The notes below the pieces were generated by a model. That model had not been told where the DNA came from. It made no database searches and worked only from the letters and a program-made list of their open reading frames with translations. Below, in pieces: positions 41,869 to 58,547 of a stretch of DNA of 64,000 nucleotides; positions within the stretch are counted from its first letter, which is position 1; each line of letters starts with the position of its first letter. This DNA is from Levilactobacillus yonginensis (lineage in GTDB: Bacteria; Bacillota; Bacilli; Lactobacillales; Lactobacillaceae), in contig NZ_OZ061549.1 in assembly GCF_964065165.1 (NCBI RefSeq), positions 1,922,001-1,986,000 of the forward strand, written 5' to 3'. Position numbers and translations under genes: made by a program.

Positions 41869-42462
41869 ATGTCCCAATATAGTGCGTCAATAATTACACA
41901 TTCATTTTGGTTTACGGAGTTTTCACAATATTTAGAATTACGGGATCAAGGCATCGATGATGCAGATATTCGATCGATGAGTATTGACGATAACTATTTT
42001 CAACAACAGTCAACAGCACGGGCTTTAGATATGGTGCGCGTAGTTAAGCAGCGAGTAGATACTCTTGATGTAGATTATTTTGACTTATTTCCATCATTAG
42101 ATTTGGAAAATCAAAAAATTGTTAACTTGTTAGCTAGTTTGCATTTAAACCGATTATTTGATGAGTTTATGTATGAGGTTTATCGGAATGAACTATTACT
42201 GGGAGATGCTAAGCTTCATAGTTATGAAATTGAAGCTTTTTTTAGTCAAAAACAAGTTGAAAATGAAAAAATTGCTAGTTGGAAAGAGGAAACAATTCGA
42301 CGAATGGCGGGGACGTTTAAGACTTTCTTGCGAGAAGCGGATCTGTTAGAGAATCAGGGAGACTACGATTTAGTTAAACGGCCTCTCTTGGATGTACGTT
42401 TAGAAATGTTGTTACATACAAAAGGTGAAGATCGACAGTTAGCTGCATTGGTAGGGAGATAG
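41869..42462 (+). CDS. brxA: BREX protein BrxA (DUF1819)
   Basis: 197 residues, matching the normal BrxA length. First gene of the BREX operon; conserved start YSASIITHSFWFTEFSQYLELRD. BrxA is a small helical protein of type 1 BREX, reported to bind DNA. brxB starts 1 bp after its stop, so they are coupled. Codon use is more AT-rich than the flanking housekeeping genes. Confidence 0.92.
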   Translation: MSQYSASIITHSFWFTEFSQYLELRDQGIDDADIRSMSIDDNYFQQQSTARALDMVRVVKQRVDTLDVDYFDLFPSLDLENQKIVNLLASLHLNRLFDEFMYEVYRNELLLGDAKLHSYEIEAFFSQKQVENEKIASWKEETIRRMAGTFKTFLREADLLENQGDYDLVKRPLLDVRLEMLLHTKGEDRQLAALVGR

Positions 42463-42463
42463 C

Positions 42464-43042
42464 ATGACAGATACAGTTTTGAAATTAAAGCATTTAAGAG
42501 AAAAGGTTGCTGATCCAGATTTTCAACAGAGTCGAGGATTATCCAATGAAGTTTCTTATTATATTCTAGCTTTTTCGCCACAAGATCAGCCACTAGTGAC
42601 CGAGGAGATTGGGTCAATGCGGCAACAGTTGAATCGAGAAACGGTTGGAATTGATATTGTGGAATTTAATCTTTACCACATTATGTGGGAATTGCTTGAT
42701 GATATGGGAATTCGCGAAGATGTTTTAGCAATGGAAGAAAGCGATGGGATTGATTATCTGACAGAACAGTTAAATAATGCTCTAGAGATGACTAGTTCGG
42801 AGAATATGTTTGTACAGTATATGCAACGGCATTTACCCAAGACCCCAGTTGTGGTTTTTGTGACTGGTATTGGTGAAATTTTTCCACTGATTCGCGCACA
42901 TAAGGTTTTAAACACAATGCATCAAATTGTAACCAGTGTGCCGGTAGTCTTCTTCTACCCTGGCACGTACGACAGTTTAAGTCTCAGTATGTTTGGTGAG
43001 TCTAAAGAGGATAACTACTACCGAGCATTCCAAATTAACTAG
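42464..43042 (+). CDS. brxB: BREX protein BrxB (DUF1788)
   Basis: 192 residues. Matches BrxB: YILAFSPQDQPLVTEEI, a central helical part, and VVVFVTGIGEIFPLIRAHKVLNTM ... PVVFFYPGTYDSLSLSMFGE. BrxB is part of the BREX core complex needed for host methylation. Follows brxA by 1 bp and precedes brxC by 12 bp. Confidence 0.94.
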   Translation: MTDTVLKLKHLREKVADPDFQQSRGLSNEVSYYILAFSPQDQPLVTEEIGSMRQQLNRETVGIDIVEFNLYHIMWELLDDMGIREDVLAMEESDGIDYLTEQLNNALEMTSSENMFVQYMQRHLPKTPVVVFVTGIGEIFPLIRAHKVLNTMHQIVTSVPVVFFYPGTYDSLSLSMFGESKEDNYYRAFQIN

Positions 43043-43054
43043 GGGAGAACCGTG

Positions 43055-46000
43055 ATGAAAATAAGAGATATTTTTGCAAAATCGATTGATCGTGATATTA
43101 AAGGTGTTATCACAATCGGGGATGAGCAGGATGCTAATGTTAAGCAGGAATTAGAAGAATATGTTGTCACGAAGGAATTAGATAATCACTTTAAGGACTT
43201 CTTCGCGGCTTATGCAGAGGGAATTCGCCACGATACCACTAACATGGGGGTGTGGATTTCAGGGTTCTTTGGTTCTGGTAAATCACATTTCTTAAAAATA
43301 TTGGCTTACTTATTAGAGAATCGTGAAGTAGCCGGAAAATCTGCGTTAGACTACTTCGTTGACGATGATAAAATTCATGATGCCCATACCTTAGCAGATA
43401 TGAAGTTAGCAACAACAGTTCCGAATGAAGTAATGCTGTTCAATATTGATTCGAAGGCTAAAAATGGGAACAAATCGCAAAAAGATGCCATTTTAAATGT
43501 CTTTTTACAAGTCTTCAATGAACAATTAGGTTTGTTTGGCGCTGACTTTTGGATTGCTGACTTGGAGCGTGATCTGATTTCTCAGGGAAGGTATGAAGAC
43601 TTTCAAGCGAAATTTCAGGAATTGGATAAGCAACATCGTGAATGGAAAGAAGCACGTAATGCATATGCCTTCTTGAAGGGTACAATTCGTGACACTTTAG
43701 TTGCCATTGAGTTCATGTCCACTGCCGATGCTGATGGATTTATTGACCAACTGAAGAAAGAGTACCCGATCAGTGTCGAAAGTTTTGCCAAGTTGGTTAA
43801 TCAGTACATTGAAAGTAAAGAAAAAAACTACCATATGGCTTTTCTGGTTGATGAAGTTGGTCAATACATTGGTTCTAGTCAACAACGGATGCTGAATCTA
43901 CAAAGTATTGTTGAAGATCTAGGAACTTATACGCATGGTAAAGCGTGGGTCATTGTGACCAGTCAGCAGGCAATCGACAAGGTGACAAAAAACATTAATG
44001 GCCAAGATTTTTCTAAAATTCAAGGGCGATTTAATACTCGAATTGCAATGTCTTCGGCTAATGTCGATGAGGTTATTCAGAAGCGTCTGTTGGCCAAAAC
44101 AGACGCGAGTGAACGGCTGTTAGAGAACACCTTTGCTGAGAATCAACATGTGATTAATAATTTAATTAGTTTTGATGGCAAGGAAGAACGGAAACGGTAC
44201 GATGATCCGCGGATGTTCGCAGATCTTTATCCATTTGTGCCTTATCAGATTTTTCTTTTACAAGATACGCTAACGGCTATTCGGGAGAATGGGTCGGACG
44301 GGAAACACTTGGCTAATGGTGAACGGTCAATGTTAGCTGTATTTCAAGAGTCGGCTAGACGACTGGAGGACCGGGATACGAAAGCGTTAGTGCCGTTTAG
44401 CATCTTTTTCCAGGGACTTAGTCATTTCCTAGATCATACACATATGATTGTTATTCAGCGTGCCCAAAATAACGAATTGATTAATCCCACTAAGGAAGAT
44501 AATCCGTTTGCTGTCCAGGTATTAGAGACATTGTTTATGGTGAAATATGTTCCAGATTTCGATGCGACTTTAAATAATCTGGTTACATTGATGATTGATT
44601 CGATTGATACCGATCGAATTGAACTAGAAGCCAAAGTTAAACAGGCATTGCGTGTGCTTCAAGAACAAAACATCGTTGAGAAGACCAGTAAGGGTTATGA
44701 GTTCTTAACGGATGCTGAACAGGATATTAGTAAGCAAATTCAGCGTCAGAGTGTGGACTCAGGGGATGTCTCTCAAGCAATTGGGGACTATCTCTTTAGT
44801 TCAGTGGCCATTTCACGTCGTTATACGTATCCGCAGTTAAAGCAGCAGTACACGTTTGTATTCAATCAGTGGGTCGATGACCGTCCAGTTGGGCCAACTA
44901 ATCAGGATATTAATTTGAAGATGGTAACGGTTGAAGGCGAAACTAACCGAGATGAAATTGAACTGCGTCGGCAATCTAGTTCACCTGAACAGCCACAGAT
45001 CATTATCGATTTGCCAGCAGATCTGCAATATGCGGAAGATCAGCGTCAGGTTCAGAAGATTCAGAAGTTTATTTTAAATCCACATGAGCAGTCTCAGGAT
45101 GCCCGTTCACAGAGAATTATTGATCTGAAAAAGACGGAACTTTCCTCTTTGAAGAAGCGAGTTGCCCAAGAATTGTTAGAAGTTTTACAACAGGCTGACA
45201 TTTACGTTCAAGGGGACAAGATTGAAGCCGGCAAGAAGGATTTCTTTGGGCGATTGGCGGATGCTCAAGAAAAATTAATTGATGAAATCTATCGTAATCT
45301 TAGCTATATTGATTCGGTTAAACAGGATAGTGATGTGGTAGCGCTGTTTAAAGATACGAATGAGCTGGTTAAGAATACAGATAATGAACGAGCAACGCAG
45401 ACAGTCTTGGAAAGAATTAACCACGAGTATTCGGGTCATAATAAGATTTCTTACAAGTCTGTATTAGAGCGCTTCAGTAAAATTCCGTATGGCTATCGTG
45501 AGATTGATACAAAATGGTTGGTTGCGAAACTTTTCGTTGATTCTAAGTTAAAAGTTTACGTTAATGGCGAGGCATTGAGTTTGCATACCGACATCGTTGC
45601 GAACGAGATGGCAAAATACTTCTCCAATCGAAAATTCGTTGATGCAGTTCAGGTAGAACCACGCCAAGCTATTAGTGAGAATAAGAAGAAGGATTTACGC
45701 AAGGTTGCCTTAGAGGCTTTCGGTAAGCAATCATTTAGTGATTCAGAAGATGACACTTTGGTTGATGAATTGCGTAACAGTATGCAAAATGAATTGGGTG
45801 CCATCAAAATCTATCTGGCTAAACCGGTCTATTATCCTGGAAGAGATGTTTTAGAGACGGGTCAATCCCTAATTAATCAATTGTTGGCACAAAAAGATGC
45901 TGATAAGTTTTATGATTTAATCAGTCGGAAACGTGACGATTTCTTAGATTGGCGCGAAGATATGACTGAATTTGGAATTAGTGAGTTTTATCAGAGCGTG

Positions 46001-46726
46001 AGCCAACAAGAAATTTGGGAATCAGCCCAGACGCAGTGTGATGTTTATGAACATTCAAAAGAATTCGTGACCAGTGATCAGGTTAAACAGACTGTTCGTG
46101 AAATTTCTACAATAATGAAGAACCGACCCCAGGGAAAGATTAAGCAACTAAAGGACCTGGTTGATAACTTTAAGTCAGTGTATGGGGCAGAATTCGATAG
46201 TGGTTTAGGTAACGTACAGCAACGGATTTCAGCGGAACAAAAGGTGGTCAATGAGTACAGTACTGATCATGGCGTTCAAGATGAATTTTCTAGTAAAATT
46301 CAACGGACGTTTGCTGATTTACTGGATAATGCACGTGATGCGACCACGTTGAATGGGCTTTATGTGATTCCGCAGCAGGCAACTGCTCGGCGGGTCCGCT
46401 TAACTCGCGAAATTGACAGCTTATTGGCACAACGGCTCGCCGAAGTAGAACGTCAACGTAAAATTAAAGAGCAGAATGTAACTGCTACGACGAACGAGAA
46501 CGGTCCGGTTAATGATAAGAATGATGACGCCGTTGAACCGACACAGATATCGGATGAGGATAGTGAACTGGTTCAGAAACCTCGAGATATCAGTGCTAAA
46601 ACGTTGCCGGTTGACCAGACGTGGCAGTTGCAGAGTCCAGAGGATGTTAAAATTCAGATCAATCAGTTACAACAGGCACTGTTACAGCAATTGGAAGAAC
46701 ATGGGAAAATCAACTTTGAACTGTAA
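43055..46726 (+). CDS. brxC: BREX AAA+ ATPase BrxC
   Basis: 1223 residues. N-terminal P-loop ATPase with Walker A GFFGSGKSHF near residue 70, Walker B-like MAFLVDEVGQYIG near 265-280, and the sensor-type motif VTSQQAID. A long C-terminal part contains coiled-coil segments and a low-complexity acidic stretch near 1150. BrxC is the ATPase of the BREX supercomplex. I take ATG 43055, seven bases after GGGGAG, over the adjacent GTG. Confidence 0.95.
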   Translation: MKIRDIFAKSIDRDIKGVITIGDEQDANVKQELEEYVVTKELDNHFKDFFAAYAEGIRHDTTNMGVWISGFFGSGKSHFLKILAYLLENREVAGKSALDYFVDDDKIHDAHTLADMKLATTVPNEVMLFNIDSKAKNGNKSQKDAILNVFLQVFNEQLGLFGADFWIADLERDLISQGRYEDFQAKFQELDKQHREWKEARNAYAFLKGTIRDTLVAIEFMSTADADGFIDQLKKEYPISVESFAKLVNQYIESKEKNYHMAFLVDEVGQYIGSSQQRMLNLQSIVEDLGTYTHGKAWVIVTSQQAIDKVTKNINGQDFSKIQGRFNTRIAMSSANVDEVIQKRLLAKTDASERLLENTFAENQHVINNLISFDGKEERKRYDDPRMFADLYPFVPYQIFLLQDTLTAIRENGSDGKHLANGERSMLAVFQESARRLEDRDTKALVPFSIFFQGLSHFLDHTHMIVIQRAQNNELINPTKEDNPFAVQVLETLFMVKYVPDFDATLNNLVTLMIDSIDTDRIELEAKVKQALRVLQEQNIVEKTSKGYEFLTDAEQDISKQIQRQSVDSGDVSQAIGDYLFSSVAISRRYTYPQLKQQYTFVFNQWVDDRPVGPTNQDINLKMVTVEGETNRDEIELRRQSSSPEQPQIIIDLPADLQYAEDQRQVQKIQKFILNPHEQSQDARSQRIIDLKKTELSSLKKRVAQELLEVLQQADIYVQGDKIEAGKKDFFGRLADAQEKLIDEIYRNLSYIDSVKQDSDVVALFKDTNELVKNTDNERATQTVLERINHEYSGHNKISYKSVLERFSKIPYGYREIDTKWLVAKLFVDSKLKVYVNGEALSLHTDIVANEMAKYFSNRKFVDAVQVEPRQAISENKKKDLRKVALEAFGKQSFSDSEDDTLVDELRNSMQNELGAIKIYLAKPVYYPGRDVLETGQSLINQLLAQKDADKFYDLISRKRDDFLDWREDMTEFGISEFYQSVSQQEIWESAQTQCDVYEHSKEFVTSDQVKQTVREISTIMKNRPQGKIKQLKDLVDNFKSVYGAEFDSGLGNVQQRISAEQKVVNEYSTDHGVQDEFSSKIQRTFADLLDNARDATTLNGLYVIPQQATARRVRLTREIDSLLAQRLAEVERQRKIKEQNVTATTNENGPVNDKNDDAVEPTQISDEDSELVQKPRDISAKTLPVDQTWQLQSPEDVKIQINQLQQALLQQLEEHGKINFEL

Positions 46727-46762
46727 AGTAAATGAAAGTCATTGAGAGTGAAGGAAGAGTTT

Positions 46763-49700
46763 ATGGATAAAACAGCGATTAAAAAATTTGCGATTGAAGC
46801 GCGTCGTTCACTCATCGAAAGTATTCAATTAAAGGCTGCAACGTTAGGAATAACTAAAGACGGTGTGGGCGATAAATTACCAATCTCAACATCAGAAATC
46901 GAGTATTACGTAGATGATCAGAGTGCAATCACTGGTAAAGATATCAGTAAGCGACAAAAGTTGGTTGCTGAATTAGAACAACGGGCGCAAAAGAATGACT
47001 TTGCAACAGCTTTTAAGGACCTCGTAGAGGAGGTTGCTTATACTTGGTTTAATCGGATTATTGCGATTCGATTTATGGAAGTAAATGATTACTTACCAAG
47101 TCGGACACGAGTTCTTTCGAGTACTGAGAATCGAAATGAGCCGGACATTATGTTAGCAGCACGTGATATCGAAGATGATTTAGGTGGCTTTTCGTCAGCT
47201 GAACGGTCGGTAATTGATAAAGCGCAAGACACTGAGTTGCCAAGTGACATGGATGCAGAGTATCAAATGCTATTTATTAAGCAGGCTAATGCGTTAAACA
47301 AGAACCTGCCATATTTATTTGAGAAAACCAATGATTATGCGGAGTTATTGTTCACTCCAAGCTATCATGATGGTGTTATTCAGCATTTAATTACTGATGT
47401 TAGTGAAGATGAGTTTAACGTGGCCGTTGGTGGTCAAGTGGAGATTATTGGGTGGCTGTATCAGTACTACAATACGGAACCCCACGACCAAGCTGTCAAT
47501 ATTACGGGTGGTCCGGTAAAAAAGAATGATATTCCAGCCGCAACACAATTATTTACGACCGACTGGGTTGTTAAATATATGGTTGATAACTCACTTGGAA
47601 AATACTGGTTAGAACGACATTCGGACAGCCATTTGGCTGATAAGCTGGATTTCCTACTGCCAGGTGAATTATCAATTACAGCTGACTCAGAGAATATTGA
47701 AGAACTCAAAATTATTGATAATGCAATGGGATCTGGTCACATTTTAGTCTATGCATTCGACGTTCTGATGACGATCTACCAGGAACAAGGGTATTCATCA
47801 CGTGATGCTGCGGTATCAATTATTCAGAACAATTTATTTGGGTTGGAGATAGATAAACGGGCCTATCAACTGGCATACTTTGCGTTAATGATGAAGGCTC
47901 GCCAGTTTAATCGACGTGCCTTGCGTCCAGATAATCTGGTACCAAATCTCTATGTTTTTGAAGATACTGATGATATCTCGGAAGAACTTTATTCTCAGGT
48001 TTCAGATAATTTAACGGATAGATTGCAGGACGTGACTAATACGTTTAGTAATGCGCGTGAGCTAGGATCAATTATTCATCTTGAATCAGAGAAAAATAAC
48101 TATTCAGAACTCGCCGAAGCTGTTCAGCAAATCGAGGTAGATGATTTGGATATCTTTGGTGTTCAGAATTCCAAAGCCAAACTTTTGCGCACATTAAAAA
48201 TCGCACAAATTTTAACGTCTCAATACGATATCGTGGTAACCAACCCACCATATATGAATAAAATGGAACCAGCCCTAAAGAAATACGTCAAAAAGTTCTA
48301 TTCAAACTATGCTGGCGACCTGTTTTCAATCTTTATTTTTAATAACAGTAATTTAGTGAAGCCAGGTGGATATTCAGCGTTTATGACACCCTTTGTTTGG
48401 ATGTTTATTAAAACATATGAAAAGCTGCGTAAATTCTTGATTGAAAATAAGAAAATTGACAGCTTAATTCAGATGGAATACTCGGCCTTTGAAGAAGCTA
48501 CGGTGCCAATTAACACATTTGTTTTAAAAAATACCAAGGATGAAAGTTTAGGTTCTTACTTGAAGCTTTCTGCCTTTAAAGGTGGTATGGGCGTTCAAAA
48601 AGATAAAGTCTTAGAAGCCATTGAAGATCCCCAGGTTGACTATCTTTATCGAACTAACCAAGCGAACTTTGCTAAGATTCCGGGTAATAAAATTTCATAT
48701 TGGGTATCCTCTAAAATTTTAGAGGATTTTCAATTTCTCCCCATAAAAGAATATGGAGTAGTTAAATCTGGAATCATGGCTAACTCAAAGTTTTTAAGAG
48801 AATGGTTTGAAGTACCCATGTCTGAGATCCAATTACATGGGACGGATGCATCTGATCTGCAAGGATTCAAATGGTTTCCTATTAACAGTGGTGGTACTTT
48901 CAAAAGGTGGTTTGGTAATAATTCTCCAGTAATTGATTTGGAAGATGCGGGTCATGATATCAAAGAGTCAGGAACCAATTATCGGCTTAGAAATTCTGAT
49001 TATTATTTTAAACAAGGTCTCACTTGGGGAAGAATAACGTCATCAAATACTTCATTTCGCTTATCTAGACAAGGTAATCTTTTTGGGGATGCTGGGCCAA
49101 TGATGTTTATCGATAATTCTATATATTATATCTTGGGCCTTTTAAACTCTAAAATTATGCCGGCAATTTCTAATATTCTGAACCCAACTCTAAATTTCCA
49201 AGTGGCTGACATGAATGATGTACCAGTAGTTAATAATAAAAACGAAGCTGTAGAAAATACTGTTAAAATCAACATTGATTTGACTAAGTATGATGAAGTG
49301 AGCTTTGAAACCTCGTGGGACTTCACTCGTCATCCACTCCTAACTCACATCGCTGACGATAAGCGAACTGAAGTTGATGGTGAGCTGCAAAATGCTTTTA
49401 AAATATGGCAGGGTGAAGCAAAAGAACGATTTGATCAATTAAAGGCAAATGAGGAAGAGCTTAATCGAATCTTTATCGACTTGTATGGACTGAATGATGA
49501 ATTGACTCCAGAAGTGGCAGATAAAGACGTATCGGTACGTTTGGCGGACGAGGTTAGAGATATTAAGTCGTTCCTTTCGTATTTTGTAGGAGTTGTTTTT
49601 GGTCGTTATTCATTGGATGTGGAGGGTTTGGCATATGCAGGTGGTGACTGGAAGCAAAGTAACTATCAAACATTTGTGCCAAACGAAGATAACCTTTTGC

Positions 49701-50281
49701 TATTGAATGATGATGATTACTTTGGCGATTCAAGGGACATCATAAATCGTCTGCGGGCCTTTCTTGGAACCACTTTTGGTACTGAAAATGTTCAGGATAA
49801 CTTAGATTACATCGCTTCTGTCGTTGGAAAAAAAGCGGATAGTAGTGAAGCATCTATTCGACGCTACTTTGTCGACGACTTCTTTAAAGACCATTCTAAG
49901 ATTTATCAAAAGCGACCAATCTATTGGGAATTCAATAGCGGGAAACAGAATGGTTTTAAAGCATTAATGTATCTTCATCGCTATGATAAAAATGAATTGG
50001 CGATGATTCGTACGAATTACTTACATCCGTTGCAAGGAAAGTATGAGCAAAGAATCAGTCAATTATCACAGTTGTTAGCCGATGAGAATGTAGTTAGTCA
50101 GAAGAAAAAGTATGAAAAGAAATTAAAGCATTTAAATCAACAGCTAACAGAAATCAAAAAGTATGATCCAATAATTCAACATATTGCAAATCAACAAATT
50201 AGCTTAGATTTAGATGATGGGGTACTTGTAAATTACAGCAAGCTTCAAGATGGAAACACGATTTTATCCAAGCTGAAATAA
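46763..50281 (+). CDS. pglX: BREX adenine-N6 methyltransferase PglX (expressed allele)
   Basis: 1172 residues. It modifies one strand of an asymmetric motif and sets the specificity of BREX. Motif I is DNAMGSGHILVYAFD near residue 323 and the catalytic motif IV is VVTNPPYMNK near 494. Residues 1-194 are N-terminal helices, the middle holds the methyltransferase core, and the TRD-like part is about 640-850. ATG 46763 follows AAGGAAG. Three segments (codons 195-240, 629-640, 851-867) are perfectly repeated, inverted, in a silent copy at 51484-55925. It follows brxC with a 36-bp gap. Confidence 0.96.
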   Translation: MDKTAIKKFAIEARRSLIESIQLKAATLGITKDGVGDKLPISTSEIEYYVDDQSAITGKDISKRQKLVAELEQRAQKNDFATAFKDLVEEVAYTWFNRIIAIRFMEVNDYLPSRTRVLSSTENRNEPDIMLAARDIEDDLGGFSSAERSVIDKAQDTELPSDMDAEYQMLFIKQANALNKNLPYLFEKTNDYAELLFTPSYHDGVIQHLITDVSEDEFNVAVGGQVEIIGWLYQYYNTEPHDQAVNITGGPVKKNDIPAATQLFTTDWVVKYMVDNSLGKYWLERHSDSHLADKLDFLLPGELSITADSENIEELKIIDNAMGSGHILVYAFDVLMTIYQEQGYSSRDAAVSIIQNNLFGLEIDKRAYQLAYFALMMKARQFNRRALRPDNLVPNLYVFEDTDDISEELYSQVSDNLTDRLQDVTNTFSNARELGSIIHLESEKNNYSELAEAVQQIEVDDLDIFGVQNSKAKLLRTLKIAQILTSQYDIVVTNPPYMNKMEPALKKYVKKFYSNYAGDLFSIFIFNNSNLVKPGGYSAFMTPFVWMFIKTYEKLRKFLIENKKIDSLIQMEYSAFEEATVPINTFVLKNTKDESLGSYLKLSAFKGGMGVQKDKVLEAIEDPQVDYLYRTNQANFAKIPGNKISYWVSSKILEDFQFLPIKEYGVVKSGIMANSKFLREWFEVPMSEIQLHGTDASDLQGFKWFPINSGGTFKRWFGNNSPVIDLEDAGHDIKESGTNYRLRNSDYYFKQGLTWGRITSSNTSFRLSRQGNLFGDAGPMMFIDNSIYYILGLLNSKIMPAISNILNPTLNFQVADMNDVPVVNNKNEAVENTVKINIDLTKYDEVSFETSWDFTRHPLLTHIADDKRTEVDGELQNAFKIWQGEAKERFDQLKANEEELNRIFIDLYGLNDELTPEVADKDVSVRLADEVRDIKSFLSYFVGVVFGRYSLDVEGLAYAGGDWKQSNYQTFVPNEDNLLLLNDDDYFGDSRDIINRLRAFLGTTFGTENVQDNLDYIASVVGKKADSSEASIRRYFVDDFFKDHSKIYQKRPIYWEFNSGKQNGFKALMYLHRYDKNELAMIRTNYLHPLQGKYEQRISQLSQLLADENVVSQKKKYEKKLKHLNQQLTEIKKYDPIIQHIANQQISLDLDDGVLVNYSKLQDGNTILSKLK
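47345..47481 (+). repeat. Inverted repeat IR1, arm in expressed pglX (137 bp)
   Basis: From TTATTGTTCACTCC to AATACGGAACC. It is a perfect inverted match of 55789-55925 by base-by-base reading. The two copies diverge immediately outside. It lies in codons 195-240 of pglX, in the same reading frame in both copies. Confidence 0.93.
48648..48681 (+). repeat. Inverted repeat IR2, arm in expressed pglX (34 bp)
   Basis: Begins ATCGAACTAACCAAGCGAAC and ends TAAGATTCC, encoding the RTNQANFAKIP segment. It is identical to the complement of 54535-54568 in the silent copy, between the methyltransferase core and the putative TRD. Confidence 0.9.
49316..49362 (+). repeat. Inverted repeat IR3, arm in expressed pglX (47 bp)
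   Basis: Begins TGGGACTTCACTCGTCATCC, encoding [15 protein letters not shown]. It is identical to the complement of 51515-51561. It marks the 3' limit of the exchangeable part of pglX; downstream sequence has no second copy. Confidence 0.92.
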
Positions 50282-50321: not shown

Positions 50322-51461
50322 GTGCCAAGTGATGTGCCAACTATTTTGATGCACTGTTTAGGATTGAAATGATCTTATCTTGGTCTTGAGACTCAAGCTC
50401 TTTGATGATGTGTAAGTAAGTAGATTGAGTAGTTGTAATATTACTATGTCCAAGTCTTCTCGAGACTGAAAGGACACTAACCCCCTTATATAACAGTATT
50501 GAGGCATGTGTATGTCGTAAACCATGAAAAGTGATTCTAGGAATATGAAGATTGGTCAGTTTATTTGTTAGGACTTTATTGATTTCAGCACTAACTAGTA
50601 CGTGACCCGTATTGTTCATAAATATCGGTTGCTTACTTGGGATGTCCTTATTTGATAGAAATTGAATAATTTTACGGATTGTATGCTTACTAACTGCAAT
50701 TTCTCGAATAGAGGAAGGAGTTTTTGTTTTCATAAATCCAGTTTTGTACTTGTAGTCCCATGCCTTGTTGACATTAATTAAATAGTTTTCAGAATCAATG
50801 TCTTCTGTGGTTAGGCCGACGATTTCGCCGTAACGCATGCCGGTCACTGCGGCAAGATAGATAATTAGTTCACCAGGTTGGGTGGTGTCAAGGTTATGAA
50901 GTAGTTTACGCCAATTGTCATAGTCTAAGGTTTTGGCAACCTTGGGGCGTTCTTTGCCAGTAATTACGGCCTTTCGAGTGGGATCTGTTGTGATTATCTT
51001 TTCATCTAACGCCTCAAGGATGCAGGCTCGGAGCTGTTTATGGAAACATGAGACAGTTCTTCGAGCATGATTCTTTGCAAATTCGTTAATTCTTTCTTGG
51101 TAGATTATTTTGGTTAAATTTTTGAGTTTTAGTTCTCCAAATAAGTGGACAGCATGTTTTGCTGTATTTTGATACTTATTGTATGTGATGGGGGAGACAG
51201 CATTTTGTTTGTAAACCTTGATCCATCGGTTGTAGTAAGAGACTAAGGTTTCATTGCCGGATTGAACTGTCATAAGATTTGGATGCTCTGTCTGAACCTT
51301 ACTAGCGGCAAGGATAGCTTCAGATTTTAAAAGAAATCCTGATTTTCGAAGCTTTTTGTATTGACCGTGTGAGTCCTTATAGGAAATTTCGTATTGCCAT
51401 GCGTTGCCACGTTTTCGATAACTAACCATGTATTTTTCCTCCATTACGTATTACTTGGCAC
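50320..51461. repeat. 11-bp inverted pair flanking the recombinase gene
   Basis: TTGTGCCAAGT at about 50321-50331, with a second near-copy TGTGCCAACT right after it, and ACTTGGCACAA at 51451-51461. They flank the recombinase gene and could be arm-type binding sites. Short, so chance is possible. Confidence 0.4.
50341..51429 (-). CDS. Tyrosine recombinase linked to pglX switching
   Basis: 362 residues, phage-integrase type. N-terminal arm-binding domain (SYRKRGNAWQYEISYKDSHGQYKK), core-binding domain (about 65-165), and a catalytic domain with R in TGMRYGEIVGL, H-x-x-R in HGLRHTHAS, and LGHSNITTTQSTYLH (Tyr nucleophile). ATG 51429 follows GGAGG by 8 bases. It lies inside the segment bounded by IR1, between the two pglX copies, and is convergent with pglX. 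The inferred job is inversion between pglX repeats; a role as a plain integrase is the alternative. Confidence 0.9.
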   Translation of the reverse strand: MVSYRKRGNAWQYEISYKDSHGQYKKLRKSGFLLKSEAILAASKVQTEHPNLMTVQSGNETLVSYYNRWIKVYKQNAVSPITYNKYQNTAKHAVHLFGELKLKNLTKIIYQERINEFAKNHARRTVSCFHKQLRACILEALDEKIITTDPTRKAVITGKERPKVAKTLDYDNWRKLLHNLDTTQPGELIIYLAAVTGMRYGEIVGLTTEDIDSENYLINVNKAWDYKYKTGFMKTKTPSSIREIAVSKHTIRKIIQFLSNKDIPSKQPIFMNNTGHVLVSAEINKVLTNKLTNLHIPRITFHGLRHTHASILLYKGVSVLSVSRRLGHSNITTTQSTYLHIIKELESQDQDKIISILNSASK

Positions 51462-51483: not shown

Positions 51484-51590
51484 TTAGCCAACGGGAGAAC
51501 GACAATGTGATAGGTTATCGTCAGCGATGTGAGTTAGGAGTGGATGACGAGTGAAGTCCCAGGAGTTTTCAAAAGAATCCCAATCTATTT
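51484..51590 (-). pseudogene. 3' end of the silent pglX cassette
   Basis: On the minus strand: [22 protein letters not shown]..., a diverged version of pglX codons about 838-867. It includes IR3' (51515-51561) and then a foreign end [10 protein letters not shown] and a stop at 51484. It is separated from the main silent cassette (53910-55925) by two IS30 elements. Confidence 0.85.
51515..51561 (-). repeat. Inverted repeat IR3', arm in the silent cassette (47 bp)
   Basis: Perfect complement of 49316-49362. Confidence 0.92.
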
Positions 51591-51630
51591 TTGATAAACT
51601 ATGATTTTTTTTGATAAACTATGATTTTTT
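51591..51630 (+). repeat. Perfect 20-bp tandem duplication in the silent cassette
   Basis: TTGATAAACTATGATTTTTT occurs twice back to back, ahead of the IS30 end. It lies in the coding part of the silent cassette (NHSLSK region), and 20 is not a multiple of three, so it disrupts the frame. Confidence 0.85.
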
Positions 51631-51634
51631 TTAG

Positions 51635-52874
51635 ATGGCGAATTTTATAATCAAGTTAGCCACTTGAAATTTAGGACAAAATAAATACACCAAGACGTAA
51701 ATCTCAGGTATCATTGGAGTTCTCACACAAACAATGAAAGAGGTCTTCGTCTTGATGCAAGAACAGCTTACCATGAATCGTCCCAAGGGTCACCATCTAA
51801 CTTTGAAAGAGCGTGGAAACATTGAGGTCTACTTTAACCACGACAAGCTTTCTCGGCGGAAGATTGCTGAGTTACTTGGCGTTAGCCCGCAAACCATAAA
51901 CAACGAAATCAAGCGAGGCTTGGTAACCAATAAGAAAATCGTTAACGGTAACGTAGTCTTCTATGAGGTCTACGTGGCGGAACTAGCCGACCAGCGGTAC
52001 CACGAGAACCGCAAGGCCTGCCACAGGCCTTGTAAGTTCTTCCAGGCGGCTGACTTTATAGCCTTCTTTGTAGAACACTTTAAGACTGATGGCTGGGCTC
52101 CAGATGCTGCTGTAGGCCGCGCCAAGGTGTTAAACCTTTTTCGGCCTGACGAGATGGTCTGTACCCAAACGTTGTACAAGTACATCGACGAACAACTTTT
52201 AGAGGTCTGTAACTTAGATCTTACCGAGAAAATGCGGCGGCGACTACCCAAGCACGTTAATCACAAAAATAAGCGTGTAATGGGACGGAGTATTGAAGAA
52301 CGTCCGGCTGAAGTTGACTCTCGCAAGACGTTTGGTCATTTCGAGATTGATACTATCGTTGGTAAACGTGATGGCCATGAGAGTGTGATTATGACCCTGA
52401 TTGAGCGTCAAACTCGCTTCCAATTTATCCGTCTGATTGACGGGCGTGACGCCGATTCGGTTGAGTACGCCCTGCGAGAAATCCTCGCAGAGTATGGACC
52501 AGTTATCAAGTCGATCACCGCTGATAACGGACCTGAGTTTGCCTTGCTGAGCGAGGCATTGCGTTCAGTGGCACCAGTCTTTCATACGCACCCGTTCACC
52601 TCTAGTGAACGGGGAACCAATGAGGTCCATAACCGGATGGTCCGCTATGACTTTCCCAAAGGCATGTCCTTAGACGCCGTAAGTCCTCGGGCTGTTGCTA
52701 GAACAGCGGACAAGTTGAATAACACACCTCGTCGTCTGCTAGGCTTCCAGACTCCCGCCGAACTCTTCGCCGCCGCCTGCGGCTAGGCTCCTCGCGCCAC
52801 CAACTTCAACCCCTGAGAATCCCTTGGTATCAGTATTTGGTCCTAGTGACTAACTTGTTCTTGCAATTTGCGAT
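51635..52874 (+). mobile_element. IS30-family element A inside the silent pglX cassette
   Basis: Imperfect inverted ends: GCGAATTTTATAATCAAGTT near 51638 and the complement ending near 52871 (GCAAATTGCAAGAACAAGTT). The 14-mer GATTTTTTTTAGAT occurs on both flanks (51623-51636 and 52872-52885), which is longer than the usual IS30 target duplication, so the exact ends are uncertain. Confidence 0.75.
51755..52786 (+). CDS. IS30 family transposase (element A)
   Basis: 343 residues from ATG 51755; an in-frame ATG at 51734 is possible. HTH: HHLTLKERGNIEVYF ... SRRKIAELLGVSPQTINNEIKRG. DDE domain: HFEIDTIVGKRDG, ITADNGPEFALL, SSERGTNEVHNRMVRYDFPKG. ORF intact. Clearly different in sequence from the transposases at 10394 and 52905, so it is a separate IS30 subgroup. 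Confidence 0.93.
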   Translation: MQEQLTMNRPKGHHLTLKERGNIEVYFNHDKLSRRKIAELLGVSPQTINNEIKRGLVTNKKIVNGNVVFYEVYVAELADQRYHENRKACHRPCKFFQAADFIAFFVEHFKTDGWAPDAAVGRAKVLNLFRPDEMVCTQTLYKYIDEQLLEVCNLDLTEKMRRRLPKHVNHKNKRVMGRSIEERPAEVDSRKTFGHFEIDTIVGKRDGHESVIMTLIERQTRFQFIRLIDGRDADSVEYALREILAEYGPVIKSITADNGPEFALLSEALRSVAPVFHTHPFTSSERGTNEVHNRMVRYDFPKGMSLDAVSPRAVARTADKLNNTPRRLLGFQTPAELFAAACG

Positions 52875-52904
52875 TTTTTTTAGATACTGTGGCAAATTAC
52901 AAGT

Positions 52905-53834
52905 TTAATCCGAACAAGCCCGGAATCTTTCAATGGCAGTCTGTTGATGATGTATTTTTAATGGTCGTTGATTAATTAGTTCAAGTGCTGCTAGGATCTC
53001 ATCAGTCGTTACTTGGCTAAAATTGGTCTTTTTCGGGAAGAACCAGCGTAACCGTCTATTAAAATATTCATTGGAACCTCGCTCCCATGGTGAATATGGA
53101 TGGCAAAAATAAACTTTGATCTGATAATCCTGTTCTAAGGCCTGATAATTGGCAAACTCTTTACCATGATCAACAGTAATGGATTTTACTTGGGGACCGA
53201 AGGCCCCCATAAACTTGCCAAAGGCGGTGTTTAGAGCCTTAGCCGTTCTATTAGGGGCTTTGATGGCCCATAGAAGTCGGGTCTTACGTTCTACGAATGT
53301 AACCAGACATGATCGTGACTCACTTCGACTAGAAAGCACCGTATCTACTTCCCAATGACCAAAAGCTAACCGTTGATTAACAGTTGTTGGCCGTTGTTCG
53401 ATGGAAGTCCCACTTGTAAATTTCCCACGATTTTCGCTCACTCGGTGCTGGCGGACATTCCGATTGGGTAGATCAGTCAATTTGAAGGGGAGCCAGCCAC
53501 GATTAAGCCAATTATAAATTGACGCAGTGCTCAAGTTATAAGCGGCCGCAATGGTTTCTGGTGACCAGGTTAATCGTAAGTGATTGGTAATTAAAGTCGC
53601 TAATGCTGCCGTCAGCATCGAACGACGGCCGCAATTCCGCCTTTTGCGATCTGCATCTTGCTGAGCTAATTCTGGATCATAAGGTTTAACCCGGTCCAAC
53701 TCATAGCTAATCGTAGCTTTGGCGACGCCTAAGGCGTCAGCCATTACTTGGTAAGATTTATTCCCCTCATTGACCAGTTGTGCTAGTGCGCCACGTTGAA
53801 AACGTGATAAAGTAGATGTACCCAAAGTAATCAC
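52905..53834 (-). CDS. IS30 family transposase (element B)
   Basis: 309 residues. HTH: LSRFQRGALAQLVNEG ... YQVMADALGVAKATISYELDRV. DDE domain: HWEVDTVLSSRSES, ITVDHGKEFANYQ, PWERGSNEYFNRRLRWFFPKKT. The stop codon overlaps the left inverted repeat. ORF intact. Confidence 0.93.
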   Translation of the reverse strand: MITLGTSTLSRFQRGALAQLVNEGNKSYQVMADALGVAKATISYELDRVKPYDPELAQQDADRKRRNCGRRSMLTAALATLITNHLRLTWSPETIAAAYNLSTASIYNWLNRGWLPFKLTDLPNRNVRQHRVSENRGKFTSGTSIEQRPTTVNQRLAFGHWEVDTVLSSRSESRSCLVTFVERKTRLLWAIKAPNRTAKALNTAFGKFMGAFGPQVKSITVDHGKEFANYQALEQDYQIKVYFCHPYSPWERGSNEYFNRRLRWFFPKKTNFSQVTTDEILAALELINQRPLKIHHQQTAIERFRACSD

Positions 53835-53909
53835 TCCCTATATTGGTTGGAATTAGCTACTACCATTGTAAGTGATTGCTTTGGGCTTTTTAATTTCTGT
53901 TCGGATTAA
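52905..53909 (-). mobile_element. IS30-family element B inside the silent pglX cassette
   Basis: Ends TTAATCCGAACA at 52905-52916 and TGTTCGGATTAA at 53898-53909. It is separated from element A by only 30 bp of cassette or unknown sequence. Its right end creates the stop of the silent pglX frame. Confidence 0.8.
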
Positions 53910-55922
53910 TTATAGAATTTGCCCTGTAATAATAGTTTCGTCATCAGCATATTGTATAGGCAGTTGGCTTAAAGTTCCGGGTTGGAAATTTAAAGTTGGA
54001 TTTTGATAAGCCAATAATTCCTCTGTAATAGGTGACGAAAGTAGTGCCTGTAGCAAGAAGAGCTTATTCTTGGAGTGATTAAACAACTTTGATCCAGCAT
54101 TGTCAAAAAGGAACCCAAAATCATCAATCCTAGAAGAAAACTTCCCAGAAGTTAGTGCATTCCATGTTATTCCCGGTTGAAATATATAGTCTAAATTGTA
54201 ATTGTGAGATCTCACTTTTCCAGCGTTATTTTTAAAATTTCTAATTTCTAATCCATCGTGTTTCCAATTAATGACATACTCATTATTCCCATACCATTTT
54301 CGATAGCCTCCGCCTTTGTCGTAAGGAAACCACTCTTTACCACTATTATCAGCCTGACTTCTGGAATGCATATTAAAACCAATATTAAGAATTTTCACTT
54401 CGTACCAGAATCTTAAAAATCTCTCATTGTTTGCTGTAGCCATTCCAAGCCTTGGACTTGCGATTTCTTTCAATAGGTGTTCTCCATAGCTAGATAATGC
54501 TTTTTCACTAGCCCAATAAGCAATCGGCATTCCTGGAATCTTAGCAAAGTTCGCTTGGTTAGTTCGATTAAATCTGTTTCCAGTAATTGGTACTTTGTTA
54601 GGAGCTGTTCCTGAAACATCGCTAGTTTTAATCTGATGATAGGTACCAACGAATTCGAATAACTGGCAATTACGTATAATCGAAACTACCGTCCCAAAGG
54701 CAATGCCCATGACATTATTTTCCATGTGCATCAGATTTGATATTGTATATTCTTTTAAAAGATTAACTCGCATTTTCTCAAAGCTTGAAAGGAACATCCA
54801 TGATTGCATTGTGACCATGGCATTATATCCCCCTGATACCAAGGCTTTATTCCATCTTTCCATAAACATAGCAAATAAGTCAGACTTGGAGTTGGGATAA
54901 TTTTTCTTAGCGAATTTTGATAAATGCTCACCCATTCGCGATGAACCCATATAGGGTGGATTGGTAATAACTACTTGATACTTGCGACTTAGTAATTCAG
55001 CGCAATCTAAAATTGCATTTACTTTATCAATTAACGGAATGAGCTCAAACGACAATTGGTTTTGATTCAATTGATTCAGTTCTTTTCTAAGTGTTGTCAG
55101 AGTTTCTATATCTTCAAGTATTAGTGATCCCAGTTCATTTCCGAACTTAAAATCAGCTAATAATTTAGATAATATATCAACACTTTTCTCAGATAACTGT
55201 TCTTCCAAAATATTGAACTCTGAAGGCTTAAGATCGTCAGTTCCAGGGATATCATATAATCTAAGTCCTTTAATTTGAGTTAGAGCACGTCGATTGAACT
55301 GTCTGGCCTTCATCATGACGGCAAAGTATGAAAGCTGGAAAGCACGTGTATCAATATCTAAACCGTTTAAATTAAACTTGATAATGTTACTTGCGGACTC
55401 TCTCTGAGAATAACCTTCAGATTCATAAATTTGCATCAAAACGTCAAATGCATAGACCAAAATGTGACCTGATCCCATTGAAGGATCAATAACTCTTAAT
55501 TCATCAATTTTTAGGTTTTCTAATGAAGAATCAATTATCTGTAGGCTAGTATCCACGCTATCACTTTGTGGAGCATCAACCATATAATATTTCCAGCCAA
55601 AGCTTTGCGCTATTTCACTTTCTGAACGAGTATCTCCCTTAACCAGCAAACTTTTAATCCAGTATTTTCCAAGTGAATTTTGTACCATGTACTTCACAAT
55701 CCAATCAGGTGTGAAGATTTGTGTCGCTGATGCAATTTCAATATCTCTGAACTTATGAGACTTGGGTTTACCAATTACTATGTCCTTTGGTTCCGTATTG
55801 TAGTACTGATACAGCCACCCAATAATCTCCACTTGACCACCAACGGCCACGTTAAACTCATCTTCACTAACATCAGTAATTAAATGCTGAATAACACCAT
55901 CATGATAGCTTGGAGTGAACAA
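53910..55922 (-). pseudogene. Silent, promoterless pglX cassette cut by IS30
   Basis: 670 codons open on the minus strand, from FTPSYHDGVIQHLITDVSED (inside IR1') to LNFQPGTLSQLPIQYADDE, then a stop at the IS30-B junction. It corresponds to pglX codons about 196-830 and has its own motif I (DPSMGSGHILVYAFD) and motif IV (VVITNPPYMG). The body and especially the TRD-like second half differ from the expressed allele. It lacks the N-terminal 194 codons, a start and a promoter. Orientation is opposite to the operon, between pglX and pglZ. Confidence 0.9.
54535..54568 (-). repeat. Inverted repeat IR2', arm in the silent cassette (34 bp)
   Basis: Perfect complement of 48648-48681. Confidence 0.9.
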
Positions 55923-55925
55923 TAA
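55789..55925 (-). repeat. Inverted repeat IR1', arm in the silent cassette (137 bp)
   Basis: Perfect complement of 47345-47481. Confidence 0.93.
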
Positions 55926-56009
55926 AATTCACAAATTCTACTGCGGTTAGTACTGAAGTACGTTATGATTAACGTACATTTATAAAACGAAAAGAAGAGG
56001 AGTAGAGCC

Positions 56010-58547
56010 ATGGCAGATGTGGATATCAATCAAATTATAACCACTCTTAAAAAAAGGTTTACTGAACAAAATCAGTTTGTTTTCTGGTACGACGATAATG
56101 GTGATTTTGTTGATAGTATTGCGGCAATTCGTGAAGCATTATCGACTGTTGCGGATGTCTACATCATGCAGCCAGGGCGTCAGCTGGAAACAAAACAGCA
56201 TTTACTAACGCTTGATCGTCAAGATAAGGTGCTGGTTTATTCACCCACTGCGGAACCGGCCTTAGAGGAAGACCATTTGCGCAGCATTGTTCTGTACTCT
56301 GGAAGATTCTCAGCCGACTCAAAAGAGATATTACGTAAAGAGTTAGGTTTACCAGATGAACTGAAGCCGTTTATTCAAAAGTATGCGGCATATTTTGGTA
56401 GTAATCGTCGTCGGAAATTATTCGCACAGTATGATTTAGCCAGCTATCAGGAAAATCCTGAATTAGCGATTATGGCTGCGTTAGTGCAACTTAATCAGCC
56501 AATTGTTGATTTTTTTGATATTCTCCAAGAAGTTTTACGCAAAGGCATTAAAGAAAGTATGGCCTTATCTGACTTTGAGCACTATAGGGTGCGTCAAGCT
56601 TTCTGGTCAGAAATTAATACGCGATTTGGGTATGCTAGTGAATCACCTAAACTGGAAGAGCTAATGACAGGACTTTATGTGACAGTGGCCTTTCAGCAGA
56701 TGGAGAGGGCGGTTCCCAAAGAGCAAGCAATGTATGATTTAAGCGATCACGCGGCTAACGTTCAGACTTTTATGCAGCAATTCAGTAGTCGCAAAGAGTC
56801 GGATGGTTCTGGGGCAGAGGATAGTTTTGATAGTATTGGGGAATTGGTTTGGCAAAATATTGATGGTGATCGGGCCTTTAAGGGCGATAAAATTGACGAT
56901 TTAGCTAAATCTGATGTTTTTCCAAGATTTGATCAATTGATTCTCTTGTGGATTCAGGAACGGCTACAACTTGAAGATCTTGACAGTCGGTTAGCTGGTC
57001 AGACGATTCCGGAAATTACTCGAACTCGGCTTGAGACGCACTATGGGAACAAACCGCGTTTTGCTCGTCTGTACCGGATGATGCGTCGGGCCTGGAACAT
57101 TATCCATAAATCCCATCAACAACCCGCAGATAGCATGCAGGGGCTTATTAGTGACTACGTTTCTCAAGACGGCTACAAAGTAGATACTGACTACCGTAAG
57201 TTTACGTATTACTATCAAATGGCTGGTATGCCAGAGCAATTTGCTAAAACGAAAAAGTTGATTGAATCAATCTATGTAAATAATTATTTGGACAATGCCA
57301 TTTATGCTTGGAATGATCACTTGGATTTCACTGATTTGAAGCCTAAGCAACTACAACGTAACTTTTACCGGTACTATATTGGACCTGAGAAAAATCGAAT
57401 TGTCGTTATCATTTCCGACGCTTTCCGGTTCGAGGCTGCTAAGGAATTAGAAAAAAAGTTGAGTCGCGAAGATCAAGTTACAGCATTATCGATGAATTAT
57501 TTACTTACGGGACTCCCATCGGTTACGTACATGGGCATGCCGGCGTTGTTACCGCACCGGCAGTTAGCATTGAAAGACAAGACGTTACTGGTGGATGGGC
57601 AGTTAGCGACTAATCGTGAGGCGCGGCAGGAAATCTTGAAGCGCCAGAATCCTAAGAGCGTCGCATATGCTCTAGATGATTTAAAGGGGGCAACGTCCAA
57701 AGAAATTCGAGCTAAGTTTTCGGGACAAGAGGTCGTCTACGTTTATCACAATCAAATTGACGCAATCGGTGATAATAAAAAGACTGAAGATGATGTCTTT
57801 AAAGCGACAGACGAAGCAATTACGGAAATTCAACAGTTAATCTCACGACTCCGAACGAATGGTATTTCGCACTTCTATGTCACAGCCGATCACGGGTATA
57901 TTTATCGAAATGATCAGTTAAAAGAGACGGATAAGATTGAAGTTGCCAAGGGTGAAGCCGATTTGAAGTCACAACGCTATTTGGTAACGCCAAGAAATTT
58001 TGAGGTGCCGGGTGTTGGGCAACAAAAGCTAAGTGAGATTCTAGCCAATGATGATCCACGCCTTGTCTATTATCCAAAGACGGCGAATATCTTTAAATCT
58101 TCGGGCTCTTTTAATTATGTACATGGTGGTGCTTCACTTCAGGAAATGCTGGTACCTCTTTTAGAAGTTAGAACAACGTCCAATCGATCCGCAGCTCATG
58201 ATGTTGAATTGGAGCTTTTTAGTATGAATCGGCAGATTACGTCGTTAACGGTGCCACTGGTTGTTCGTCAGTCAGCTGCAATTAGTGCGACGGTTATTCC
58301 AGCAGAATTTAAGTTATATTTTGTAAATGATCAGGATCAACAAATCTCGGGCCAGACGACGGTTAATGCCAATAGTCGATCAGAATCCGTAAAGGAACGG
58401 ATGCAAAACGTTCAAGTTATTTTAGCAGATCGAGATTATGATAAGCAGCGTCAATACTATTTGGTAATTGAAAACATGAGTAGTGGTCAGAAAATAGAAA
58501 TTGAATTTACAATGGATATTGCGGATTTGAATGATTTTAATTTTTAA
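56010..58547 (+). CDS. pglZ: BREX phosphatase-fold protein PglZ
   Basis: 845 residues. The central alkaline-phosphatase-superfamily domain has IVVIISDAFRFEAAKELE near residue 463 (metal Asp) and HFYVTADHGYIYRND near 625 (metal Asp-His). The N-terminal 400 residues are helical. PglZ is a signature BREX protein required for methylation and defence. SD AGGAG, ATG 56010. It lies just outside IR1', so inversion of the pglX segment would not change its orientation, but the inserted 5.7 kb separates it from its likely former promoter-proximal genes; it may need its own promoter near 55930-55980. Confidence 0.95.
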   Translation: MADVDINQIITTLKKRFTEQNQFVFWYDDNGDFVDSIAAIREALSTVADVYIMQPGRQLETKQHLLTLDRQDKVLVYSPTAEPALEEDHLRSIVLYSGRFSADSKEILRKELGLPDELKPFIQKYAAYFGSNRRRKLFAQYDLASYQENPELAIMAALVQLNQPIVDFFDILQEVLRKGIKESMALSDFEHYRVRQAFWSEINTRFGYASESPKLEELMTGLYVTVAFQQMERAVPKEQAMYDLSDHAANVQTFMQQFSSRKESDGSGAEDSFDSIGELVWQNIDGDRAFKGDKIDDLAKSDVFPRFDQLILLWIQERLQLEDLDSRLAGQTIPEITRTRLETHYGNKPRFARLYRMMRRAWNIIHKSHQQPADSMQGLISDYVSQDGYKVDTDYRKFTYYYQMAGMPEQFAKTKKLIESIYVNNYLDNAIYAWNDHLDFTDLKPKQLQRNFYRYYIGPEKNRIVVIISDAFRFEAAKELEKKLSREDQVTALSMNYLLTGLPSVTYMGMPALLPHRQLALKDKTLLVDGQLATNREARQEILKRQNPKSVAYALDDLKGATSKEIRAKFSGQEVVYVYHNQIDAIGDNKKTEDDVFKATDEAITEIQQLISRLRTNGISHFYVTADHGYIYRNDQLKETDKIEVAKGEADLKSQRYLVTPRNFEVPGVGQQKLSEILANDDPRLVYYPKTANIFKSSGSFNYVHGGASLQEMLVPLLEVRTTSNRSAAHDVELELFSMNRQITSLTVPLVVRQSAAISATVIPAEFKLYFVNDQDQQISGQTTVNANSRSESVKERMQNVQVILADRDYDKQRQYYLVIENMSSGQKIEIEFTMDIADLNDFNF

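Follow-up and report, generated by a model that had tools for sequence, protein, structure and literature searches.

The window, a 64,000-nucleotide stretch of the Levilactobacillus yonginensis genome, carries the genes and repeats listed in Table 1. PADLOC and Pfam bear out the gene order and agree with the initial annotation, which had placed a recombinase and an inverted pglX copy between pglX and pglZ of a BREX island. The BREX type 1 set of brxA, brxB, brxC, pglX and pglZ lies within one cluster by both methods. The sixth core gene of type 1, brxL, gave no match to PF13337 in any of 19 genomes, that of the window included, and none to TIGR02688 in 11 genomes; each model matches 2 of 14 control genomes. 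Since neither model detects brxL, we regard the locus as a brxL-less relative of type 1.

Table 1. Features of the BREX locus, in window positions
Feature	Position	Strand	Description
BREX cluster	41869-58547		Order brxABC-pglX-recombinase-inverted headless pglX-pglZ
brxA	41869..42462	+	PADLOC BrxA 4e-62; Pfam BrxA
brxB	42464..43042	+	PADLOC BrxB 8e-60; Pfam BrxB
brxC	43052..46726	+	PADLOC BrxC E 0; three Pfam BrxC domains
Active pglX	46742..50281	+	1179 codons from TTG; PADLOC PglX E 0
IR-L	active 47345-47488 / silent 55782-55925	+ / -	144 bp, 98%, 137 bp perfect; codons 202-249; NTD/MTD border
IR-L conserved block, active copy	47441-47466	+	
Active MTD module	47489..48647	+	Bounded by IR-L and IR-M; occurs inverted in silent slot of L044
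IR-M	48645-48704 / 54512-54571		60 nt, 83%, 34 bp perfect; codons 635-655; MTD/TRD hinge
IR-M core	active 48648..48667 / silent 54549..54568	+ / -	
Active TRD module	48668..49345	+	Bounded by IR-M and IR-R
IR-R	active 49304-49362 / silent 51515-51573	+ / -	59 nt, 97%, 47 bp perfect; codons 855-874
IR-R core	active 49346-49362 / silent 51515-51531	+ / -	Start of CTD
Fixed CTD of pglX	49363..50281	+	Absent from silent cassette
Tyrosine recombinase	50341..51444	-	367 aa; arm-binding, SAM-like, catalytic domains (Pfam)
Conserved TGTGACAAAMTTGTGCCAA	51455..51473	-	Just upstream of recombinase; identical in ten congeners and window
IS30-family element 1	about 51628..52873	+	Pfam rve/HTH_38; in silent cassette
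IS30-family element 2	about 52890..53923	-	Matches records annotated ISLsa1; in silent cassette
Silent TRD module	53924..54548	-	Broken at about codon 838 by IS elements
Silent MTD module	54569..55781	-	Open frame
Inverted PglX piece	55922-53910	-	PADLOC and Pfam
pglZ	56010..58547	+	PADLOC PglZ 2e-237; Pfam PglZ

As in a shufflon, an expressed gene is accompanied in the window by an inverted partial copy that has no start. A database copy of the active gene (P0121) begins 7 codons later and encodes 1172 aa. The two pglX copies have three inverted repeats in common, and the longest exact block measures 137 bp; 200 codon-shuffled controls gave no block longer than 16 bp, so the repeats are not a product of chance. 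The initial annotation had described three ordered perfect repeats; their number and order hold, but perfection is confined to inner blocks of 137, 34 and 47 bp. The repeats sit at PglX domain borders, so that the methyltransferase (MTD) and recognition (TRD) halves form separate cassettes. The active TRD is 30% identical to that of the L. yonginensis protein P0122, with neighboring parts at 94-97%. The cores of IR-L, IR-M and IR-R are unlike one another, and inspection by eye found no half-site in common among the three.

Conservation of the repeats extends to the DNA level, synonymous sites included. Three blocks common to both pglX copies are present in all 11 Levilactobacillus loci (the window and ten congeners), and codon invariance is concentrated in the repeats (21/46 inside versus 16/360 outside; Fisher 4.5e-13). 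The IR-M core forms an exact inverted pair in 10 of these 11 loci, its bases being unchanged in 22/22 active and silent copies except for one base inserted in the silent copy of L. hammesii (L046). Neither the IR-M core nor the IR-R core occurs in any of five BREX loci in which no relative of the recombinase was found. Conservation of the protein segment alone ("RTNQANF") was considered for IR-M and rejected on the grounds of the recurrent core bases, the concentration of invariant codons there and the absence of the core from the five recombinase-free loci. Beyond Levilactobacillus, the IR-R core is weak, with inverted pairs at three or fewer mismatches in 9 of 26 loci, and an IR-R block of at least 14 bp common to both copies is missing from 7 of 36 loci.

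The silent cassette extends to 51515, and its frame stays open over 671 codons, to end a short way into the second IS. The initial annotation had called this cassette degenerating, which is true of the two IS30 insertions it overlooked but not of point decay. Element 1 has 9 further copies in the genome and element 2 has 5, all about 100% identical, and both insertions are recent. When the whole pglX region was used as a near-DNA query against plasmids, no record covered 80% of it; the best 20 of 325 records cover about 11%, corresponding to the IS. The silent body of the window was not seen as an active gene elsewhere, the nearest among the listed proteins being 67% identical. Silent cassettes are open along their entire length in 9 of 10 congeners, the tenth being that of L. 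hammesii, which is broken at IR-M and stops after 444 codons. A promoterless pseudogene without a role was rejected because of these open cassettes and because modules exchange places in relatives.

Alternative inversion states exist in nature, among relatives of this strain. In L. yonginensis JCM 18023 (L044), the silent slot holds the counterpart of the window's IR-L and MTD (47345-48684) in inverted orientation at 94.2%, while positions 41400-47481, 49337-51582 and 55789-60500 are collinear with that strain at 92-95%. Between the plasmids of L. brevis TMW 1.2108 and L. plantarum K25, the active and silent MTDs are reciprocally swapped and inverted (98.2% and 92.6%), the remaining collinear alignment being 94-99% identical. 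In locus L096, the CTD and recombinase (2.2 kb) are inverted relative to locus L100; L096 represents the single-IR-R-inversion state and has no full-length pglX. The initial annotation had held that a lack of inversions and of similar rearrangement in related strains would point to a static duplication; these three cases supply such rearrangement, and its suggestion that defense could be switched off fits the state of L096. Two sister L. brevis plasmids showed no difference of state over 8.5 kb of identical sequence, and switching may therefore be rare.

The modules also reassort independently. Among 240 listed proteins, 27 of 76 MTD types occur with at least two TRD types and 10 of 130 TRD types with at least two MTD types; three MTD/TRD sets show all four combinations. 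Types with multiple members were found both active and silent for 18 of 30 MTDs and 13 of 29 TRDs.

Our favored reading, with a probability of roughly 0.83, is that an inversion switch with three sites and two exchangeable modules acts on the specificity methyltransferase of this BREX type 1 locus. Weighing against it are the identical sister plasmids, the unlikeness of the three cores, the weak IR-R core in other genera, an IR-L of a length that RecA could use, a silent body of the window not seen active among the listed proteins, the broken silent frame of L. hammesii and the lack of brxL matches. The initial annotation's shufflon-like exchange acting on pglX is upheld in kind by the rearranged relatives, although the exchanged units are two, MTD and TRD, rather than one cassette. 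The N-terminal domain before IR-L and the C-terminal domain after IR-R are fixed, and for both the methyltransferase module (IR-L to IR-M) and the target-recognition module (IR-M to IR-R) the inverted silent cassette holds an alternative. In the proposed mechanism, paired inversions at IR-L and IR-M would swap the methyltransferase module alone, those at IR-M and IR-R the recognition module alone, and those at IR-L and IR-R both. One inversion at IR-R would move the CTD and recombinase to the silent side and leave PglX without its CTD, a state that is most likely OFF. The linked recombinase probably carries out the inversions, and full-length module combinations would be expected to differ in methylation motif. 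Switching presumably occurs in this strain as well; with the spare TRD jammed by the IS30 elements, a full-length enzyme should now be obtainable only through the MTD swap, as bringing the silent TRD into the active gene should truncate it.

It is also conceivable, though unlikely, that the locus in this strain is a static or decaying relic and that its BREX system no longer switches or defends. The two IS elements in the silent TRD and the lack of brxL matches are what would be seen in such a relic. However, the recombinase, active pglX and remaining BREX genes are all open frames, and the two copies of IR-L match exactly over 137 bp, as either exchange or a recent duplication would predict. 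Since PF13337 and TIGR02688 find no brxL in the ten congeners with whole loci either, its absence cannot be put down to decay in this strain alone.

Less probable still is ordinary RecA recombination across the inverted duplication, with the recombinase as a passenger integrase. IR-L spans 129-148 bp at 95.9-100% identity in each of the 11 loci, a length sufficient for RecA, and the recombinase is one of a broad family of integrases: matches at 1e-40 occur in 250 of 397 family genomes, most of them distant, and of 43 matching plasmid records, 39 fall below 45-47% identity, those listed having no pglX label. The nearer relatives behave differently, since all 26 listed matches of at least 55% identity in other genera adjoin an inverted pglX piece. 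The R, K, HxxR, H and Y catalytic motifs of the tyrosine recombinase are preserved in all 11 loci. The crossover at IR-R also argues against RecA, as the L096 copies have only 10 exact bp in common (13 with one mismatch) and the L100 copies 13, and so does the invariance of codons within the repeats. Replacement of modules by horizontal recombination between strains, with the silent copy a donor-like relic and no inversion within the locus, is very improbable: most comparisons show differing TRDs even when the MTDs agree, so new modules do come from outside, but the reciprocal exchange of the same two MTDs in position and orientation and the flipped CTD and recombinase of L096 each need internal inversion.

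The conserved TGTGACAAAMTTGTGCCAA upstream of the recombinase could, as a guess, be an arm-type site or a promoter element. A distant match among genome contigs, in Listeria (31%), lies in a stretch that shows none of the other query genes.

Phase-variable type I hsdS loci, such as those of streptococci, have a linked tyrosine recombinase, inverted repeats in the specificity gene, silent partial copies and combinatorial recognition halves. The inversion switch proposed here has all of these features in kind; in contrast, the shuffled gene is a BREX methyltransferase and one of its two modules is the catalytic domain. Phase variation of PglX in lactobacilli is already known, and Goldfarb et al. 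in 2015 reportedly described it in the BREX locus of Lactobacillus rhamnosus GG. An excerpt of PMC7513527 cites Goldfarb et al. 2015 for this observation. By that account, the L. rhamnosus GG locus is similar in having a full and a partial PglX with an integrase between them and a PglX that varies, but the excerpt does not describe three sites, two independent modules at domain borders, TRD-only cassettes or a CTD-flipped state. Paired reciprocal SNPs at the two pglX genes of L. rhamnosus GG (PMC6256098) are predicted to reflect exchange inside IR-L. No description of a three-site, two-module pglX design was found in the open-access literature searched.

The BREX cassette of Lacticaseibacillus paracasei Zhang resembles the present locus in holding two methyltransferase genes, and excerpts of PMC10164179 report that 6mA was lost only on pglX inactivation and ascribe a regulatory role to the "second methyltransferase". 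That gene may instead be a silent cassette. Type 1 BREX in general is marked by adenine methylation at a 6-bp motif and by the exclusion of phage. According to an excerpt of PMC11842806, E. coli BrxX recognizes bp 1-4 through its TRD and bp 6 through a loop of its MTD. We give even odds to a more specific proposal, that lactobacillus PglX is a two-dial combinatorial switch in which the MTD would set the base that follows the methylated adenine and the TRD the first four bases. Two cassettes would then give four motifs plus OFF states through one tyrosine recombinase and three unlike sites at domain borders, and the annotated "second methyltransferase" of lactobacillus BREX loci would be the silent half. 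If true, this would account for PglX being the variable BREX gene and for the presence of a headless second PglX in lactobacilli, provide a natural domain-swap series showing which PglX parts read which bases, and represent a BREX system altering its self-mark through DNA inversion, with a bearing on phage control in food starters and on methylation-based strain typing. The predicted inversion states are short and can be checked by PCR in named strains.

The plasmid BREX loci of L. brevis TMW 1.2108 and 1.2111 and L. plantarum K25 and SRCM103426 have the same arrangement, with a recombinase about 57% identical to that of the window. They differ in being plasmid-borne and in having an annotated brxL, which the TMW 1.2111 record labels a TIGR02688 family protein.

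The active and silent copies of pglX share three inverted repeat pairs, designated IR-L, IR-M and IR-R, and between these shared blocks the similarity of the two copies is weak. Congener sampling recovered pglX in 13/34, from which ten whole loci were fetched and three were fragments (genomes G006, G018 and G020). The three blocks were found in 11/11 Levilactobacillus loci examined (the window and the ten congeners); in two of these, L040 and L047, most of the target-recognition module (TRD) is also alike between the copies (88-90%). The available part of PMC11842806 divides E. coli BrxX into an N-terminal head (NTD, 1-210), a methyltransferase module (MTD, 211-650), a hinge (638-675), the TRD (651-837) and a C-terminal domain (CTD, from 838). 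Alignment to this protein places IR-L at the NTD/MTD border, IR-M within the hinge and IR-R ~20 residues into the CTD. Both modules can bear on specificity, since the same partial source reports that recognition of base pairs 1-4 lies with the E. coli TRD and that of base pair 6 with a species-specific loop of the MTD.

Repeats and insertion elements of the pglX copies
Feature	Position	Remark
IR-L	codons 202-249	common to active and silent pglX
IR-M	codons 635-655	common to active and silent pglX
IR-R	codons 855-874	common to active and silent pglX
IS30-family element 1 in silent pglX	about 51628-52873	9 copies at ~100% elsewhere in genome
IS30-family element 2 in silent pglX	about 52890-53923	5 copies at ~100% elsewhere in genome

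The repeats are conserved at the DNA level. Where the amino acid is invariant across the 11 active Levilactobacillus genes, the codon itself was also invariant in 21/46 cases inside the repeats versus 16/360 outside (Fisher 4.5e-13), with repeat bounds that were chosen after the repeats were seen and that omit codons 646-660 (2/5) and four border codons (0/4). The IR-M core, ATCGAACTAACCAAGCGAAC, forms an exact inverted pair in 10/11 Levilactobacillus loci. The one exception is L. hammesii, where a base inserted in the silent core also breaks the silent frame. Exact matches to this core number two in the window's own genome, and the three cores are mutually unalike. Across 26 loci of other genera the IR-M core was an inverted pair (up to 3 mismatches) in 18, single in four (contig ends truncate two of these) and absent in four. 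The IR-R core is less conserved, with inverted pairs in 9/26. Neither core was present in the five BREX loci where no recombinase relative was seen, two of which hold loose matches (4-5 mismatches) to the IR-L block.

The genome carrying the window (2.88 Mb, 5 contigs) has the island order brxA-brxB-brxC-pglX-recombinase(-)-silent pglX(-)-pglZ. In this genome and ten congeners, no brxL was found after pglZ (58548-58844) or genome-wide by two models (PF13337 and TIGR02688), whereas plasmid-borne relatives have the gene; the window-type locus is a five-gene BREX system plus a recombinase. The silent pglX begins at codon 202 and is without head and CTD, and its open frame of 671 codons ends on entering an IS30 element. 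Both IS30-family insertions look recent because of their near-identical copies elsewhere in the genome; beyond them the cassette end persists down to IR-R at 51515. Between the silent IR-R and the recombinase start (51455-51514), TGTGACAAAMTTGTGCCAA is kept in the window and all ten congeners, and in most loci the silent frame reads on beyond IR-R and finishes with a common short tail (LSHCRSPVG or a close variant). Elsewhere in the window, a transporter-like gene (by appearance) downstream of pglZ is tandemly duplicated at 73% (58634-60136 and 60377-61884), and a dispersed repeat of ~150 bp occurs at 14350-14506, 18545-18701 and 34078-34225 (78-93% alike, one copy inverted).

We infer that the recombinase performs inversions at these repeats and that the resulting swaps change the recognized motif, the outcome being set by which site pairs invert. 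Inversion at IR-L and IR-M would swap the MTD, at IR-M and IR-R the TRD, and at IR-L and IR-R both modules, while a single IR-R inversion would leave no full-length enzyme. Because the spare TRD is broken, only two full-length states are predicted in the window, its own TRD with either MTD.

Five comparisons bear on natural REARRANGEMENTS: L. yonginensis JCM 18023 (L044), a second L. yonginensis PglX (P0122), a set of plasmids, the locus pair L096/L100 and an L. paraxiangfangensis protein set. The window and JCM 18023 are collinear at 92-95% over 41400-47481, 49337-51582 and 55789-60500, and window 47345-48684 matches the silent slot of JCM 18023 in inverted orientation (94.2%). With its flanks collinear, this sequence comparison indicates that the MTD has moved to the other slot; the TRDs of the two strains give no alignment over their length. 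P0122 matches the window in head (96%), MTD (94%) and CTD (97%) and has a TRD at 30%. Plasmids from L. brevis TMW 1.2108 and L. plantarum K25 carry their two MTDs in exchanged positions: one plasmid's silent MTD matches the other's active MTD in inverted orientation at 98.2%, and the reverse pairing stands at 92.6%. Collinearity (94-99%) extends over the head, the recombinase, the CTD and the pglZ side. The K25 arrangement recurs in L. plantarum SRCM103426 and L100, and the plasmids of TMW 1.2111 and TMW 1.2108 are identical across 8.5 kb. The active MTD of another relative, L098, corresponds to the active MTD of TMW 1.2108 (99.1%) and to the silent MTD of L096 (94.8%).

L096 and L100 differ by inversion of the CTD and recombinase (2.2 kb), with MTDs, head and pglZ collinear at 94-96% and TRDs that do not align. 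On its brxC side L096 carries head-MTD-TRD without a CTD (921 codons counted from codon 8), and on its pglZ side a headless piece bearing the CTD (1000 codons). At the crossover the two copies have 10 exact bp in common in L096 (13 with one mismatch) and 13 in L100, which is less than ordinary homologous recombination needs. The last comparison is a set of four database proteins, three under L. paraxiangfangensis. Its two full proteins are identical in head, TRD and CTD, with MTDs at 31%, and its two partial proteins have identical TRDs and bear the full pair's two MTDs. All four come with a longest contig of 191,516 bases, a length that an inversion would not alter, and the set probably represents two states of a single genome.

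Module reassortment was examined in 240 database proteins (the best 120 of 7998 and the best 120 of 7872 passing), of which 120 were classed as full, 90 as silent-type and 30 as other. Types were defined as clusters at 93%, and proteins covering <85% of a segment were omitted for that segment. In this sample 27/76 MTD types were paired with at least two TRD types and 10/130 TRD types with at least two MTD types, and all four MTD x TRD combinations occurred in three sets (L. plantarum, L. namurensis and the L. paraxiangfangensis set). Types with more than one member were both active and silent in 18/30 cases for the MTD and 13/29 for the TRD.

A recombinase match at 1e-40 was present in 250/397 family genomes, mostly to distant integrases. 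Among the matches listed for these genomes, 36 reached at least 55% identity, ten in Levilactobacillus and 26 in other genera (L086-L111), and an inverted pglX piece adjoins the recombinase in 26/26 of the latter, L096 being in the flipped state. Named matches comprise ten Levilactobacillus species, Lactiplantibacillus dongliensis and one unrelated Listeria; the closest belongs to L. yonginensis (95%), which places the window's host in Levilactobacillus, with the species a tentative assignment. A TRD can also form a unit of its own, since five loci (L086, L093, L094, L101 and L108) have a silent TRD without an MTD; four of them have the IR-M core where the silent TRD begins, and in L094 the core was seen only in the active gene. 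Four loci with distant recombinases (L112-L115, 48-49% identical) have a split pglX: the CTD (882-1169 or 1177) stands apart ahead of pglZ, and there are several cassettes covering codon 319 onward, with other sites and no IR-M or IR-R cores.

Full and partial PglX parted by an integrase are described for L. rhamnosus, as in strain GG, in the available part of PMC7513527, which cites another work for phase variation. The kind of system is known; the two-module, three-site pglX variant was not found in the open-access literature searched, subscription papers being outside its scope. The phase-variation work cited for L. rhamnosus is reportedly that of Goldfarb et al. The portions available of PMC11341690 and PMC11842806 mention pglX phase variation in general terms, and the words recombinase, integrase and invert are absent from the accessible text of a 2026 BREX survey (PMC12839542).

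A published trace may exist in L. rhamnosus GG. The accessible part of PMC6256098 lists SNPs of GG KCTC 5033 against the reference (NC_013198.1 coordinates) in two opposed pglX genes, including 2158707 C>T paired with 2164871 A>G, 2158710 G>A paired with 2164868 T>C, and a fifth, 2158719, that has no partner in that list. By arithmetic on the printed SNPs, each pair has complementary bases at positions that add up to 4323578. Both pairs fall at pglX codon 219, the IR-L region in the window, and they look like an exchange within IR-L; the authors list them as SNPs.
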